A stretch of 39,930 nt of DNA from a virus: positions 1 to 39,930 of IMG/VR virus record IMGVR_UViG_3300025131_000119, one strand, 5' to 3'. Shown here one piece after another: positions 1,185 to 19,708 of this stretch. The position numbers and the translations under genes were made by a program. Every line of letters starts with the position of its first letter. Positions within the stretch are counted from its first letter, which is position 1. Under the pieces are notes generated by a model. That model made no database searches, was not told the origin of the DNA, and worked only from the letters and a program-made list of their open reading frames with translations.

Positions 1185-4055
1185 ATGTCAGTTAAATCTT
1201 TTAAGTTTATTTCACCCGGTATTTTCATCAACGAAATCGACGATTCCCAATTACCCGCCACCCCAGATGAGGTCGGTCCAGTGGTTATTGGACGAACAGA
1301 GCGAGGACCAGGAATGCGCCCTGTTAAAGTTAATTCTTTTTCAGAGTATGTGGAAATTTTTGGTAACCCCATTCCTGGCGGAGCCGGTGGCGATGTATGG
1401 CGAGATGGTAATTATACCGCACCAACTTATGCTGCATACGCAGCGCAAGCTTACTTGCGTAACAGCAATGCTACAACCATCGTTCGTCTCCTTGGTGGAC
1501 AAAGCTCACAAGTTGCTGATGGTGGAGCAGGTGAGGCAGGTTTCGAAACCTCTGGTTCTAATATGGCTGACAAAGCCAACAACGGCGGCGCTTATGGTTT
1601 ATTTATGTTTCCATCTGCATCGTTTGATACACCTGTTACTGGTGTTCTTGCAGCCGTTTGGTATCTTAATGAAGGCACAATTGAGCTTTCTGGCACAGTT
1701 AGAAACAGCACTACAATTGCAACTGGTTCTGCCGTCTTAATGAAAGACTTAAATGCTGCTGGTGTTACAGGTGCCGGAACAAAGGAATTTAAAGTCCTTA
1801 TTAAGTCAGCGGCTACAGATCCAGCCACCCAAACAGTTTTACACGAAACATCATTCAACTTTGATCGTTCAAGTTCAAAATATATCCGAAAAGTGTTTAA
1901 CACAAATCCAACACTTATTAACAGTGATATTACAAGAACAGCACAAGCAGAGGTTTACTGGCTTGGACCAACCTATGAAAGAGAAGTGGCTGACAACATA
2001 ACCACTGGAGAAACTTTTGGTATTATCCTTGGTTTAGACAGCGGCTCTAGCAACGCTGCCAATTTCCGCTTTGGATTCCGAGCAGCACAGACTCCTTGGT
2101 TTATCTCTCAACATCTCCAGTCTGCTTACTCCGGCTTTGATGCCAACAACATGACAAAGCTGTTTAAATTTCACACACTTGATTCTGGCGATGATCAACA
2201 GAGAAGAGTTAAGATTTCTATTAGTGGGATTAAGGCTTCAACAACTGAGCTTGATCCTTATGGCTCTTTTAATGTCGAAGTTCGCGATGTTAAAGATAGC
2301 GACAATACACCAATAATCTTAGAAAGATTCACTTCTGTTAACCTTAACCCTAATCATCCAAAATATATTGGAAGAGTTATTGGTGATCAATACCTCGTGT
2401 GGGACGACACTCAACGTCGTTATCGCACATACGGAAACTATCAAAATAATTCAGCCATTATTCGCGTTGAAGTAAATGAAGATGTTGAAGCCGCAGCCAC
2501 TGATGCAAGACTTCTTCCGTTCGGATCTTTCGGTCCAGTTCGATTCAAGAACTGGGGAACAGTTCTCTCCGGTAGTGACACTCCTGCTGATACTTATGTT
2601 ACAGGTGCCTCTGGCATCTCACATCCATTCCTTCATGGTAATCATAACCCGTTCTGGTTTGTCCAAGATGGCACAAGTACCGATGGTCATTTCACTGGAA
2701 CATTAAATTATCCAGCAATTCCGTTAAGAGTCAGCGCTTCCGATGGGGATATACCAGATCCAACAGATGCTTATTTTGGTGTCGATACTTCACAAAATGG
2801 TAATAATCGTTTTGAAAGCAGTTACATTGATATTGTTAGAGCACTGCCAAATTCCGCAGATGCTTTTGCGGTCGGAGCCGGAACTGAAAGATCTTATATC
2901 TTTACCCTTGACGACCTGAAGTCCTCTAATGGTGGAGCCGCTGGTGAGGTTGCAGTTTATTCATCTGGCTCGCGTGTAGCAGGAACATCTTTTACAGCGA
3001 CCAGCGGAACCTATGAACAAGTTCTCGATATGGGTTACAACCGATTCACTGTTCCACTCGTTGGTGGATTTGATGGGCTCGATATAAGAGAAAAAGAGCC
3101 ATTTAACAATACCGACCTTGCAGGCGGAGCCGACACAACAAACTACGCTTATTATAGTGTGAGACGCGCTCTTGATACAATTGCAGATCCAGAGTCTTGT
3201 GAAATGAACCTCTTGACGGTTCCCGGTATCTATAACTCTGCCTTGACTGCCAAGGTTCTTGAGATCTGTGAGAAAAGAGGTGATGCACTTGGTCTTATTG
3301 ACATTGATAGTGGATATGTGCCACAAACTGAGAACACAAGTGATCAGCAAACTAACGCTGGCACCGTGGCAACCGCAGTCTCTAACTTAAGAGCGAGACA
3401 GCTTAACAGCAGTTATGGTGCTTGTTACTATCCTTGGGTCCAAATCCAAGACACAATCAGCGACTCGCTCGTATTCGTACCGCCTTCAGTTGTTGCTCTT
3501 GGAACATTCTCAAGCGCACAGAGAAATTCAGAACTTTGGTTTGCTCCAGCCGGATTTACACGCGGCGGTTTGACAGAGGGCTCTGCTGGTATCCCGGTCA
3601 TTCAAACTCGCGCTCGCTTGAACTCCAAGGAACGTGATGATCTCTATGAGGCAAACATTAATCCGATTGCCACATTCCCAGCAGAGGGTATTGTAATCTT
3701 CGGTCAAAAAACCCTTCAGGTTACCCCTTCCGCGCTTGACCGAATCAATGTTCGTCGTCTCATGATTTTTGTAAAGAAAGAAATTTCTCGAATCGCTGCG
3801 ACAATCTTGTTTGACCAGAACGTCCCAGCAACTTGGAACCGCTTCTTATCAAAGGTTGATCCTTTCCTCCGAAGTGTCCAGTCCCGCCTTGGCTTGACCG
3901 ACTACCGCGTCATTCTCGACGAGTCCACCACGACTCCAGAGTTGATTGATAGAAACATCATGTACGCCAAGATCTTCCTGAAGCCTGCACGAGCGATTGA
4001 ATACATTGCTCTTGATTTTGTTATCACAAATACCGGCGCAGGTTTTGAGGATTAA
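1185..4055 (+). CDS. gp18: Tail sheath protein (gp18-like)
   Basis: This 956-residue protein is the contractile sheath subunit that polymerises around the tail tube. The N-terminus (SPGIFINEIDDSQLP) and the following VGPVVIGRTERGPGMRPV segment are the classic start of phage and R-type sheath proteins. The C-terminus has the conserved sheath core: a SRIAATILFDQN helix, WNRFLSKVDPFLRS, then a final IMYAKIFLKPARAIEYIALDF strand that swaps between subunits. It is longer than T4 gp18 (659 aa), and the extra length lies in the middle (roughly residues 100-600), where sheath proteins carry surface-exposed domains. AAGGAG lies 10 nt before the ATG. The tube gene follows after 41 nt, the usual pairing. 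Confidence 0.95.
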   Translation: MSVKSFKFISPGIFINEIDDSQLPATPDEVGPVVIGRTERGPGMRPVKVNSFSEYVEIFGNPIPGGAGGDVWRDGNYTAPTYAAYAAQAYLRNSNATTIVRLLGGQSSQVADGGAGEAGFETSGSNMADKANNGGAYGLFMFPSASFDTPVTGVLAAVWYLNEGTIELSGTVRNSTTIATGSAVLMKDLNAAGVTGAGTKEFKVLIKSAATDPATQTVLHETSFNFDRSSSKYIRKVFNTNPTLINSDITRTAQAEVYWLGPTYEREVADNITTGETFGIILGLDSGSSNAANFRFGFRAAQTPWFISQHLQSAYSGFDANNMTKLFKFHTLDSGDDQQRRVKISISGIKASTTELDPYGSFNVEVRDVKDSDNTPIILERFTSVNLNPNHPKYIGRVIGDQYLVWDDTQRRYRTYGNYQNNSAIIRVEVNEDVEAAATDARLLPFGSFGPVRFKNWGTVLSGSDTPADTYVTGASGISHPFLHGNHNPFWFVQDGTSTDGHFTGTLNYPAIPLRVSASDGDIPDPTDAYFGVDTSQNGNNRFESSYIDIVRALPNSADAFAVGAGTERSYIFTLDDLKSSNGGAAGEVAVYSSGSRVAGTSFTATSGTYEQVLDMGYNRFTVPLVGGFDGLDIREKEPFNNTDLAGGADTTNYAYYSVRRALDTIADPESCEMNLLTVPGIYNSALTAKVLEICEKRGDALGLIDIDSGYVPQTENTSDQQTNAGTVATAVSNLRARQLNSSYGACYYPWVQIQDTISDSLVFVPPSVVALGTFSSAQRNSELWFAPAGFTRGGLTEGSAGIPVIQTRARLNSKERDDLYEANINPIATFPAEGIVIFGQKTLQVTPSALDRINVRRLMIFVKKEISRIAATILFDQNVPATWNRFLSKVDPFLRSVQSRLGLTDYRVILDESTTTPELIDRNIMYAKIFLKPARAIEYIALDFVITNTGAGFED

Positions 4056-4096: not shown

Positions 4097-4660
4097 ATGC
4101 CAATTCAGAAATCCAATTTTTGGTTAAACCCAGAATTTGAGCCCAAAAGACAATTTAGATATTTGATTGAACTTACAATCGGAGCACAGAACTTGCAATT
4201 CCTTGCAAAGTCCGTTGATCGTCCGTCTTATACTGTCGAATCAAACCCTCATAAATTCTTTAACCACACTTTCCACTACCCAGGAAGAGTGGAGTGGAAA
4301 TCTATTAGTTTAACCTTGGTTGATCCTGTTAACCCAAATGGTGCCGCACTTCTCTATGAGTACCTCTCAAGCATCGGTATTGAGAAGCCCACAAGTGTTA
4401 AAGCCGCTATTGGCTCCACGATCACTAAAGAATCAGCTTCCTCTGCTCTTGGTAACTTGGTTATCAAAGAGATGGGAACACGTCCAGGTTCCCCTGAGAC
4501 TATCGTTGTTGGAAACTGGCAGTTCCTTAACGCATTCTTAACTAGTGTGGACTTTGGCGATCATACATACGAGTCCGAGGACATGGTTGATATTACCATT
4601 GATGTTCAATACGATTGGGCAGAGTACCAGCGCGGCGATGTCCAAGCGCGTGGCTCCTGA
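4097..4660 (+). CDS. gp19: Tail tube protein (gp19-like)
   Basis: This 187-residue protein matches T4 gp19 (163 aa) in size, position and pattern. It opens with NFWLNPEFEPKRQFRYLIEL and carries the tube hallmark around LAKSVDRPSYTVE, then the FHYPGRVEWKSISLTLVDP strand pair. It ends with a DITIDVQYDWAEY strand. Hexameric rings of such subunits form the DNA conduit inside the sheath. AGGAG precedes the start by about 11 nt. Shortly after the stop a run of eight T (4661-4668) follows an imperfect GC-rich stem within the last codons (about 4627-4653), which might weakly terminate transcription; the 7-nt gap makes that doubtful. Confidence 0.92.
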   Translation: MPIQKSNFWLNPEFEPKRQFRYLIELTIGAQNLQFLAKSVDRPSYTVESNPHKFFNHTFHYPGRVEWKSISLTLVDPVNPNGAALLYEYLSSIGIEKPTSVKAAIGSTITKESASSALGNLVIKEMGTRPGSPETIVVGNWQFLNAFLTSVDFGDHTYESEDMVDITIDVQYDWAEYQRGDVQARGS

Positions 4661-4738: not shown

Positions 4739-5596
4739 ATGTCTAGAAATAAGCAGCGAACTGCTGCTGCCACGGATGCTACTGCTGCAACGACAGCGCC
4801 AACAACCCCGGCAGCACCAACTTCGCTTTCGTATATAACTCCAACAGAATTTGTTGAACTTCCTTCTCGTGGCAAGTTCTATTCCACAGATCATCCCCTT
4901 TGCGGTAAAGAAGTGATTGAGATGAGATACATGACAGCAAAGGATGAGGATATTCTAACTTCCCCTGCTTTGCTTAAGAACGGCGTAGCGATTGACAGAT
5001 TGATTGAAAACCTTATCGTTGACAAAAACATTGACGCGACCAGTTTGCTTATTGGTGATAAGAATGCTATAACACTCGCTGCAAGAATTTCCGGTTATGG
5101 GGAGCAATATGAAGTAAATGTTACTTGCCCTACTTGTAACACAAGCATCGATCATACCTTCGATTTATCTCAAATTCCACATACTCATGGTATTCAACCT
5201 GATGATGATACTGAAAATATTTCGCTAACATCAGAGGGAACATTCGCCGCGACCATGCCTAAAACTCAATTTACTGCTGAGTTTAGATTGTTGAATGGTG
5301 GAGACGAGAATTTCATCGAACAAGCAGCCTCCAGGCTCAGAAAATTAAATTTACCAGAGTCCTCTTCTACAACTTTGCTAAAACAGCTTGTTGTTTCTAT
5401 TAACGGAGTAAATACACCCTCAGAGATTGCCAACTTCATTGACAATATGCCAGCGCAAGATGCGCGTTTCCTGCGTGCCTGCGTGCAGTTGGTTACTCCC
5501 AATGTTGAGATGACACAGAGCTTTGAATGTACGTCTTGCGGTACGACGACCGAAATGGCGGTGCCGTTCACTTCGGAGTTTTTTTGGCCTAACTGA
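4739..5596 (+). CDS. Baseplate hub / tail assembly protein, gp26-like, four-Cys zinc motif
   Basis: This 285-residue protein resembles the T4 gp26 family (T4 gp26 is 208 aa), needed to assemble the baseplate hub. After an Ala/Thr-rich low-complexity leader (residues 8-29) comes the family-like stretch ITPTEFVELPSRGKFYSTDH and MRYMTAKDEDILTSPALLKNG. Two CxxC pairs (C130/C133 and C264/C267) could bind one zinc. The frame ends at EFFWPN, just after a run of seven T, while a gp51-like frame continues in phase +1, as in tail-chaperone pairs made by frameshifting. AGAGGTG precedes the start by a few bases. The tape-measure gene follows one gene downstream, which fits a tail-chaperone role. Confidence 0.7.
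   Translation: MSRNKQRTAAATDATAATTAPTTPAAPTSLSYITPTEFVELPSRGKFYSTDHPLCGKEVIEMRYMTAKDEDILTSPALLKNGVAIDRLIENLIVDKNIDATSLLIGDKNAITLAARISGYGEQYEVNVTCPTCNTSIDHTFDLSQIPHTHGIQPDDDTENISLTSEGTFAATMPKTQFTAEFRLLNGGDENFIEQAASRLRKLNLPESSSTTLLKQLVVSINGVNTPSEIANFIDNMPAQDARFLRACVQLVTPNVEMTQSFECTSCGTTTEMAVPFTSEFFWPN
5579..5585 (+). other. Candidate programmed frameshift site (T7 run)
   Basis: Seven consecutive T span codons TTT TTT T(GG) just before the gp26-like stop at 5594-5596. A -2 slip (next codon at 5583) or a +1 slip (next codon at 5586) moves the ribosome into the downstream frame, which reads GLTDEYMTSVYEQ and stops at 5769-5771. A -1 slip would stop almost at once (TTG GCC TAA). Tail-chaperone genes of many long-tailed phages use such shifts; phage Mu is reported to use -2. 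Confidence 0.5.
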
Positions 5597-5603
5597 TGAG
5601 TAT

Positions 5604-5771
5604 ATGACATCTGTCTATGAGCAGTTCTTTTACTTAAAAATGCACGGAGGCTGGAGTTTCATCGAGGCTTATAATCTCCCAGTTAAACTACGCAACTGGT
5701 TTGTTAGAAGATTATCAAAACATTTTGAAGATGAAAACAAGGCTTACAAGGAAGCCTCAAGAAAAGGGTAA
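5604..5771 (+). CDS. gp51-like hub-assembly product, probably the frameshifted tail of the gp26-like protein
   Basis: This short frame contains YEQFFYLKMHGGWSFIEAYN, then LPVKLRNWFVRRLSKHFEDE and a basic end. The pattern (short helices, LP..LR.WF..RL) recalls the C-terminal extensions of tail-assembly chaperones and the place of T4 gene 51, which directly follows gene 26. The first in-frame ATG (5604) has no good ribosome site, and the coding-like sequence already starts upstream at GLTDEY (5586). Expression as a -2/+1 fusion with the gp26-like protein therefore seems more likely than separate initiation. A separate 55-residue protein remains possible. A strong terminator follows 7 nt after the stop. 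Confidence 0.55.
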   Translation: MTSVYEQFFYLKMHGGWSFIEAYNLPVKLRNWFVRRLSKHFEDENKAYKEASRKG

Positions 5772-5777
5772 TAATAA

Positions 5778-5805
5778 AAACGGGCAGAAATGCCCGTTTC
5801 TTTTT
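5778..5805 (+). terminator. Rho-independent terminator
   Basis: A perfect 9-bp stem (AAACGGGCA with TGCCCGTTT) closes a GAAA tetraloop and is followed by C and five T. It lies immediately after the gp51-like frame and before the next ACTATTTA motif, so it separates two transcription units. Confidence 0.88.
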
Positions 5806-5812
5806 GTGTGAA

Positions 5813-5851: not shown

Positions 5852-6187
5852 ATGAATGAACCAAACGACTTGGTTGAAATTGAAATTAATTTAAATATGA
5901 AAAAAGAGGGACTTTTAAACGAGTCTGGTCTTGCAGCATTTGGTGGACAAATCGAGTTGATGCTCCAAGGAATGTTTGGGCGAGGTCGCATGCCCCCTGT
6001 TAGAATAAGGGGCAAGAGAAACGATGTTGAGTTGTTTAAAGCTGCTTTGGGTAATGAAGCAAGGTATCTTAAAGCAATGAAGAAGTACGGGCTTAATGAC
6101 CAAAGGACTTATAGAAGCAAGTCTTCTTTAGATAGAGCCCTTCAACAATTTGAAAAAGCTACTGGAATTCCGTGGCCATTTGCGTAG
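5852..6187 (+). CDS. Hypothetical protein in the tail cassette (111 aa)
   Basis: I do not recognise a family. The protein starts with an acidic segment (MNEPNDLVEIEINLNMKK), then a Gly/Met patch (QGMFGRGRMPPVRIRGK), then a basic helical half rich in Lys, Tyr and Arg that ends GIPWPFA. There is no signal peptide or membrane segment. GGAGG sits 9 nt before the ATG, and the tape-measure gene begins 13 nt after the stop. The location between hub chaperone and tape measure suggests a tail or baseplate assembly role, which is inference only. Confidence 0.75.
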   Translation: MNEPNDLVEIEINLNMKKEGLLNESGLAAFGGQIELMLQGMFGRGRMPPVRIRGKRNDVELFKAALGNEARYLKAMKKYGLNDQRTYRSKSSLDRALQQFEKATGIPWPFA

Positions 6188-6200
6188 GAGGTAGTTAATT

Positions 6201-8390
6201 ATGGCTGAAGACGCCGGTAAACTTTTAGATAAAATACTACTAGCAGCAAAGAAAGCCGAAGCGTCTGGCTTTGGTGATTTTGCTGATCAATTTTCCAAAC
6301 TCTCTGAGTCTCTTGTCGAATATTCTGAATTTGGAGATATCCTATCAGCCGTTAACGCAGAGTTTGATGATACAATTGAAAATTTCATCAAGCTATCAAA
6401 AGCCTTCACAGAAGCCAAGCAAGCCGCCAATAATTTTAATAGCAACTTAGATAAGACCATTGTCAGCCTGACTGGTATAACTGATGGCTCTGACACTCTT
6501 GTTGGTTCTTTCTTTAAATTAAGAAAATCATATAAGGCTTTAGAGGTCGATGCTGAGAAGCAGAAAGAATTATATGATGCCCAAGTAGAGGCAATCGCTG
6601 AATATGTCGATAATCTTGATTTTGCAGCCTCCGCAGCCGGAGCCCTTTTTAAAAATACAAAAAAACTGCTCATTGCCAACGATGAAGCTACGGCTGGCTT
6701 CGCCCGCGCAACAGGTATGGGCAAGTCTTTTAACAAGCAAATTTTGCAGCTTGAAGCAAGCAATCGACAATTTGGTGTATCCGTTGAAGACTCAGCCGAC
6801 GCATTGCAGAGCCTTGTAGAAGGTCTGTCTGGTTTTGGTTTAATGGGCACTGAAGTGCAGAATGTGCTTGCCGATGAGGTGGCACAATTAGAGCGTCTTG
6901 GAGTCTCTGGTAATACTACTACGGGTGTGTTCCAAAGCCTAACAAGAACATTCGGAATGAATGCCGAACAGGTTACTCAAGTCACAGAAGAAACGAGAGT
7001 GCTTGCTGGTGAGCTTGGAATATCTGTTAGTGAGGCAGTCGGCAATCTCAACAAGTCTCTGCCTAAATTAGCATCTTTATCAGCAGATCAAGTTGTTCCA
7101 GCATTTAAAGAACTTCAAGAAAGAGCACTTGAAACAGGAATCTCTGTCAACGAATTGGCTGGTATCGCAGAAAGATTCGACACATTTGATGAAGCCGCTA
7201 AGGCAGCAGGTAATCTAAACGCTGTTCTCGGTACACAGATGTTTGACACCATGGGTCTGCTTGAAGCCCAGTTAGAAGGACCAGACGCAGTTATCGAACA
7301 ACTGCGACAAGGTTTGTTAGGCTCAGTTGGTAGTTTTGAAGAATTAACAGTGTTCCAAAGAAAAGCAATTGCTAACGCAAGTGGGCTTAACGAACAGGAA
7401 ATACGCGGACTATTCCTTTCTGAAGAAATAACTGAGGAGCAAAAAAAACAAGCCGAAGAGAGAAAAGCGAATCTTAAAGCTACAATGGATCTTAAAGCCG
7501 AGCTTGCAGCACTTGCACGCGAATTGGCAGTTGCTATTCAACCTTTGATGGATTTCGCTAAACTTATAGTTGGAGCCTTTGCGTCCACCGTTCGGGGGAT
7601 TAAATCGATACCAGGACTCGGCGGGGCGTTTGGAAGTGCCGTCGCAGGCGGTGCCGTTGTCGGTGGCGGTATGGGTTTAAATAAACTAAAAAATAAAGCT
7701 ATGGAAAAACTCACTGGCAAAAAACCCGGTAGCGCAGATGGCTCTAAAAAGAATCCTTTCTTCATGATCAGGCTTCGCGGCAAAGGCAAAGGCGGCGACG
7801 ACGGAGACGGAGGCGGTCTCCTCGGTAAATTTAAGAAGAAAGCCAAAGATAAGTTTATGGGTACTTCCATAGGAAAGAAACTTGGCAACTTCGGCTCCAT
7901 GCTTAAAAGCAAACTCCCCGGTGGCGGTAAAAAAGGCTTCTTTAGTAAAATGAAAAGCGGCTTCGGTGGGCTCAAGAACAAGCTCGGTCGCATACCAGGG
8001 CTGGGAAGACTAGGAACCCTCGGAAAGCTCGGAGGAAGATTTGTCCCAGGTCTTGGTCAAGCAATGATGGCTTACGAGGGTTATAAACTTGCAAGGAAAG
8101 CGTTTGCAACAGGCGGTGGTATCGCTGGCACAGGTCCAGTACCAATCACAGCCCATGGTGGCGAGGTTGTTGTTCCTGTTGAGAAAACACCAGCAGCCAC
8201 CAACTTGGCGAATATGGTTGCTCAAAGATCATCGGTGAACAATAAAGAACTCATCAAAGAAATTAGAAACCTTAACAATCGTCCGATTAAGGTGACCTCG
8301 GAAGTTACAATGGATAAACAAGCGTTTGGAAGTGCAGTTAATAAGCACTTTGGTGCTCCTGGTTCAAAACCAGCAAATAGTGTGGTGTAA
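6201..8390 (+). CDS. Tail tape-measure protein
   Basis: This 729-residue protein has the composition expected of a tape measure. Residues about 1-430 are long Ala/Glu/Lys/Leu helices with repeated phage TMP features (GFARATGMGKSFNKQ, then TRTFGMNAEQVTQVTEET). A hydrophobic helix follows (AIQPLMDFAKLIVGAF), then a Gly/Ala-rich stretch (GAFGSAVAGGAVVGGGMG). After that comes a Lys/Gly-rich low-complexity segment (about 505-615) and a C-terminal domain with AHGGEVVVPVEKTP, a very common tape-measure ending. It would set tail length and leave the tail with the DNA, taking the functional place of T4 gp29. GGAGGT lies 7 nt before the ATG. It follows the chaperone pair, the standard order. Confidence 0.85.
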   Translation: MAEDAGKLLDKILLAAKKAEASGFGDFADQFSKLSESLVEYSEFGDILSAVNAEFDDTIENFIKLSKAFTEAKQAANNFNSNLDKTIVSLTGITDGSDTLVGSFFKLRKSYKALEVDAEKQKELYDAQVEAIAEYVDNLDFAASAAGALFKNTKKLLIANDEATAGFARATGMGKSFNKQILQLEASNRQFGVSVEDSADALQSLVEGLSGFGLMGTEVQNVLADEVAQLERLGVSGNTTTGVFQSLTRTFGMNAEQVTQVTEETRVLAGELGISVSEAVGNLNKSLPKLASLSADQVVPAFKELQERALETGISVNELAGIAERFDTFDEAAKAAGNLNAVLGTQMFDTMGLLEAQLEGPDAVIEQLRQGLLGSVGSFEELTVFQRKAIANASGLNEQEIRGLFLSEEITEEQKKQAEERKANLKATMDLKAELAALARELAVAIQPLMDFAKLIVGAFASTVRGIKSIPGLGGAFGSAVAGGAVVGGGMGLNKLKNKAMEKLTGKKPGSADGSKKNPFFMIRLRGKGKGGDDGDGGGLLGKFKKKAKDKFMGTSIGKKLGNFGSMLKSKLPGGGKKGFFSKMKSGFGGLKNKLGRIPGLGRLGTLGKLGGRFVPGLGQAMMAYEGYKLARKAFATGGGIAGTGPVPITAHGGEVVVPVEKTPAATNLANMVAQRSSVNNKELIKEIRNLNNRPIKVTSEVTMDKQAFGSAVNKHFGAPGSKPANSVV

Positions 8391-19621: not shown

Positions 19622-19708
19622 GCTTGAGTGGTGGAATTGGTAGACACAAGGGACTTAAAATCCCTCGCCAGTATTGGCATGCGGGTTCGATTCCCGCCTC
19701 AAGCACCA
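19622..19708 (+). tRNA. tRNA-Leu (anticodon UAA)
   Basis: The cloverleaf folds cleanly. The acceptor is GCTTGAG (19622-19628) with CTCAAGC (19698-19704). The D arm contains GGAATTGGTAGAC. The anticodon stem AGGGA/TCCCT encloses loop CTTAAAA (anticodon TAA). A long variable arm typical of class II tRNAs follows, then T arm GCGGG-TTCGATT-CCCGC, discriminator A and an encoded CCA end. It reads UUA/UUG leucine codons, which an AT-rich phage uses heavily. The nuclease gene begins 8 nt after the CCA. Confidence 0.96.

Follow-up and report, generated by a model that had tools for sequence, protein, structure and literature searches.

In phage lambda, the short protein gpG is accompanied by a rarer, frameshift-extended form, gpGT, produced by a -1 shift in a gene located between those for the tail tube and the tape measure. 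This frameshift is kept across long-tailed phages with its direction and slippery site varying, and has been called conserved in them 'except T4' (Atkins et al., 2016, PMC5009743). In T4, gp26 and gp51 are hub assembly chaperones, and gp51 is required yet absent from the particle (Leiman et al., 2010, PMC3004832). The two T4 proteins are encoded separately, by two divergent genes and not through a frameshift, and both match the family PF12322 (E 9e-64 for gp26 and 4e-52 for gp51), T4 gp51 consisting of the PF12322 domain plus a tail in a single frame. For +1 frameshifting, the prfB (RF2) gene provides a known site, CUU UGA with an upstream SD-like element.

The window analysed here, the whole of a 39.9-kb IMG/VR virus fragment (IMGVR_UViG_3300025131_000119, 39,930 nt), contains a contractile-tail cluster in the order sheath, tube, gp26-like gene, C-terminal tail ORF, 111-aa ORF and tape measure (Table 1); beyond one 69-base match, no DNA-level relative was found among phage records. 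The gp26-like gene scored 65.3 bits against PF12322 (curated cut-off 24.5) and thus belongs to this family. As in lambda, it lies between the genes for the major tail tube and the tape measure, a flanking also found in SP-15, LIS04 and Flavobacterium phage immuto; in some jumbo phages the gp26-like gene is not so placed. The TMP_3 and TMP_N matches of the tape-measure-like gene are both under the Pfam cut-off, and the 111-aa ORF was without Pfam or PHROG match. A terminator-like hairpin (5780-5806; ACGGGCA-GAAA-TGCCCGT then T-rich bases) lies directly 3' of the tail ORF, and a tRNA-Leu gene with anticodon taa was found at 19622-19708.

Table 1. Features of the tail gene cluster and of the putative frameshift site in the window.
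Feature	Position	Strand	Match or basis
Sheath gene	1185-4055		phrog_23
Tail tube protein gene (gp19-type), upstream neighbour	4097..4660	+	phrog_4542 tail tube, E 8e-19
gp26-like gene, short product of 285 aa	4739..5596	+	PF12322 T4_baseplate, E 8e-18; phrog_150 baseplate hub, E 4e-19
Possible stimulator, an SD-like CGGAG abutting the slip codons on their 5' side	5574..5578	+	
Putative +1 slip site TTT TTT TGG (T7 at 5579-5585), non-T base before	5579..5587	+	
+1-frame C-terminal tail, 61 aa	5586..5768 (stop codon 5769-5771)	+	tail HMM
111-aa ORF between tail ORF and tape measure gene	5852-6187		no known family
Tape measure protein gene, downstream neighbour	6201..8390	+	TMP_3, E 7e-5; TMP_N, E 2e-3; size and position

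At the end of the gp26-like gene, frame 0 reads GAG TTT TTT TGG CCT AAC TGA, with the T7-bearing TTT TTT TGG five codons ahead of the TGA at 5594. The +1 frame (the same as -2) continues as GGC CTA ACT GAT GAG TAT ATG, with its first ATG at 5604-5606, and in this frame a second ORF (5586-5771) overlaps the gp26-like gene. An earlier reading made from the sequence alone (the sequence-only reading) had noted a T7 run near the gp26-like stop, a stop soon met by a -1 shift and a protein-like downstream frame, and these observations hold: the run lies at 5579-5585 and the stop at 5594-5596, the -1 frame is closed by TAA at 5590, and the second frame is open to the TAA at 5769-5771 and varies as coding sequence does, mostly at third positions (entropy by codon position 0.62/0.34/1.28).

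Several scans with a tail profile gave 267 partly redundant loci (distinct-gene counts are given where computed); the tail is in +1 at 259 of them, in -1 at eight and never in frame 0. In the window's own clade, TTTTTTTGG is kept in all 79 readable IMG/VR relatives (46-100% identical). Both slip-site Phe codons are TTT in 65 of 65 distinct clade genes, compared with 26-30% TTC at five further conserved Phe columns elsewhere in the gene (65 distinct relatives), and the codon-invariant columns, three of 54 conserved degenerate ones, are all at the slip site (F296, F297 and P299). Judged from these alignments, such codon constancy is not due to chance. The homologue alignment that the sequence-only reading had proposed as a check thus finds the phase conserved in 259 of 267 loci and the T run in 79 of 79 clade members, and on this comparative ground the observation is confirmed as real and conserved.

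Instead of arising by frameshift, the tail might be a separate gene whose translation starts at an ATG of its own (5604) through translational coupling. That ATG could start a tail-only product in the window phage, which counts against the frameshift model, and an ATG is present there in 48 of 62 distinct clade tails; the S-PM2 gene annotated gp51, which is the shifted tail ORF of that phage, likewise has an annotated ATG start directly following the stop of gp26. Against this, some 50 tails lack any ATG, GTG or TTG ahead of the conserved core, so that separate initiation is unavailable there with ordinary start codons, the GLxDxY stretch between the slip point and the ATG is conserved with coding-type variation, the slip codons are under codon-level selection, and T4-type gp51 has the tail fused. 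Own starts are clear at two loci (L188 and L193), where UUU is lost from the site and the tail begins at its own ATG; a tail with its own start and no slippery codon, which the earlier reading had named as evidence against itself, is a rare exception (2 of 267 loci). Separate initiation is accordingly considered a very improbable explanation of the second frame. The separately started tails of these two loci carry an added N-terminus.

The +1 loci vary in their slip codons. TTT TTT TGG CCT was found at 193 loci, TTT CTT TGG CCT at 35, TTC TTT TGG CCT at 14, TTT CTA TGG CCT at four and CTT TTT TGG CCT at three, and a few further types exist. Among named phages the sites are TTT TTT CAC (SP-15), TTT TTT AGT (LIS04), TTC TTT CGT (GXN1), TCC TTT TTT TGG with the tail in +1 (RM378) and TTT CGC (BRock, whose tail falls outside the profile and whose frame is nevertheless +1); TTT TTT CGT (L285) and GAC TTT TTC (L292) also obey UUU-Y. 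At every +1 site a UUU is retained with U or C as the next base, which would let tRNA-Phe move one base to UUU or UUC; this UUU-Y is the feature common to the sites compared, T7 not being required.

The sequence-only reading had left the shift as either -2 or +1. Where T7 is present, a -2 ribosomal shift and RNA polymerase slippage on the run would each lead into the same frame as +1; however, the 14 TTC TTT TGG and four TTT CTA TGG loci have the tail in that same frame with neither -2 re-pairing nor a long homopolymer available, which rules out these two routes and makes a fusion by either of them highly improbable. The +1 alternative stands, being on this comparison the sole shift common to all sites of the +1 set. 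Homopolymers are generally prone to sequencing error, but the chance that an assembly or sequencing error (a T6 or T8 misread) has broken a continuous gene is negligible and that option is ruled out, given the same phase in 259 loci including the isolate genomes SP-15 and Mel-JY01 (a Microcystis phage), the run in 79 of 79 IMG/VR relatives and the absence of frame 0 among the 267 loci.

With a +1 frameshift as the preferred reading, most ribosomes would terminate at 5594-5596, releasing the short gp26-like protein. In a minority, peptidyl-tRNA-Phe on UUU (5579-5581 or 5582-5584) would re-pair with the overlapping UUU, and the shifted ribosomes would read GGC CTA onwards, adding the 61-residue tail as three helices; the fusion peptide would span TSEFFGLTDEYM. 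As in prfB, the P-site tRNA would slip +1 onto an overlapping codon with an SD-like sequence upstream, whereas the window locus would use tRNA-Phe on UUU and sites of its type have a sense codon (usually UGG) next in frame 0, with the stop several codons on. Over the 14 nt upstream of the slip codons, anti-SD pairing averaged -4.2 kcal/mol against a background of -1.2 (226 distinct genes); this SD-like stretch is enriched yet not universal, and conserved residues may contribute to the enrichment. No RNA structure stimulator was found 3' of the slip site.

The short and long forms would act together as tail-assembly chaperones in the manner of lambda gpG/gpGT, the shared domain handling the tape measure or hub and the tail engaging the tube or another tail part. 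It is thus very probable that one gene yields two proteins, a short gp26-like form and a rarer +1-shifted long form, as a G/GT-like pair; the conserved phase, slip codon and tail, the roughly 50 tails lacking a usable start, and +1 as the one shift open to all +1-set sites are read directly from the sequences, and we infer the shift itself, its efficiency and the chaperone role, the last from gene position, the short/long design, a conserved shift of changing direction and the T4 gp26/gp51 literature. Like G/GT-type genes, the locus consists of a pair of overlapping ORFs with a conserved slippery site linking them; unlike that of lambda, its shift would be +1 at UUU-Y. No sequence or fold homology to lambda gpG or HK97 gp13 was detected (Pfam TAC families, PDB), so the likeness is one of function and not of membership by descent.

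The opposite direction, -1 at U_UUU_UUC, appears from sequence comparison to be used by cyanophages and some jumbo phages. Each of 63 distinct cyanophage-type genes carries T TTT TTC and places the tail in -1. In 121Q, RaK2, Atu_ph07, Hallingskeid and Paride the site is U UUU UUC and a -1 ORF follows it, and XacN1 and RAS14 have U UUU UUU, the tail profile matching only 121Q, RaK2 and Hallingskeid among these seven. The T4-superfamily outgroups examined have one PF12322 gene apiece, and those in -1 carry U UUU UUC (S-PM2 and phiW-14) or U UUU UUU (HTVC008M and phiM12); RM378, in +1, is also one of these outgroups. S-PM2 resembles the window in having a single PF12322 gene with an overlapping tail ORF, but its tail is in the -1 frame at U_UUU_UUC and the two ORFs are deposited as separate genes.

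The base before the slip codons is seldom T in the +1 set: 85.6 occurrences were expected among 226 distinct genes and five were seen, all at TTC TTT sites and none at TTT TTT or TTT CTN sites. That T is kept out of the position ahead of the first TTT is consistent with the -1 heptamer U_UUU_UUU being avoided. TTT CTN sites also exclude a preceding T, though no canonical -1 heptamer would form there, and another reason may therefore contribute. Two loci (L064 and L066) have gained the T (GAT TTT TTT TGG), and their tails are in -1.

The label 'gp51-like' given earlier to the second frame proved apt: in T4 the counterpart of the shifted tail is the C-terminal portion of gp51, and in cyanophages it is the small gene that is annotated as gp51. 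In a 20-sequence set, the cyanophage -1 tail profile matched the C-terminus of all 13 T4-type gp51 proteins (E 3e-14 to 4e-7), running through the slip point, and matched no gp26. Profile comparison linked +1 tails to -1 tails (P 1.5e-9) and -1 tails to gp51 tails (P 3.5e-14); compared directly, +1 and gp51 tails gave a weak hhalign score of 20.3 against a shuffle maximum of 15.6. In AlphaFold models made separately, the tail and the T4-type gp51 C-terminus share helix order, the three-helix model of the 61-aa tail having a pLDDT of 89.6. The window tail thus appears homologous to the gp51 C-terminus, strongly by way of the cyanophage tails and weakly in direct comparison, and the proposed joining of gp26-like and gp51-like products by frameshift is strongly supported by the comparative evidence. 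In PHROGs, gp51 matches phrog_150 and phrog_634 and S-PM2 gp51 matches phrog_634, which also matches six of 37 relatives' tails, the window's own not among them.

Foldseek of the 61-aa tail against BFVD found nothing significant, the gp51 model had no fold match in the PDB, and no Pfam TAC family matched the tails above cut-off (best 0.029, in one tail). A weak structural match to the gp51 model (E 2e-3) was seen for BFVD A0A0A0YVM8 of Citrobacter phage Moon (545 aa), named 'Tape measure chaperone'. Weak matches to DUF6760 (Pfam) were found in 14 of 37 phage tails (best E 0.001). A search of genomes for copies in bacteria turned up a single MAG locus, with few more afterwards. A Bacillota genome (L291) has at about 7.4-7.7 kb a DUF6760 match (2e-6) adjoining tube-like genes of an apparent extracellular contractile injection system; from the DUF6760 matches, such systems may carry a related tail domain.

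The locus shares the family PF12322 with T4 gp26 and gp51, and its shifted tail has a counterpart in the gp51 C-terminus. T4 is probably no exception to the G/GT rule: gp26 would correspond to the short form and gp51 to the long one, arising from a duplication in the T4 line with the long form fixed in frame, and relatives outside the T4 family proper would frameshift one gene, the direction flipping between -1 (U_UUU_UUY) and +1 (UUU_Y) mainly by way of a single base preceding UUU. In one T4-type gp51 (L301:2001-2758) the frame is interrupted around codon 120, well away from where the slip site would be, by error or in a decayed gene.

No earlier report of the frameshift proposed here was found in open PMC text, subscription journals lying outside that scope. 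The locus and its relatives amount to an extensive natural experiment, both on +1 frameshifting where the slip codon is simply UUU-Y and on one-base switching of shift direction. Many records list two genes or miss the second, and the annotation of several hundred phages would change. The same short/long pair is found across the relatives of T4, which itself seems to use two separate genes (26 and 51), and the locus with its relatives offers a specific, testable answer to the status of T4 as the G/GT exception.
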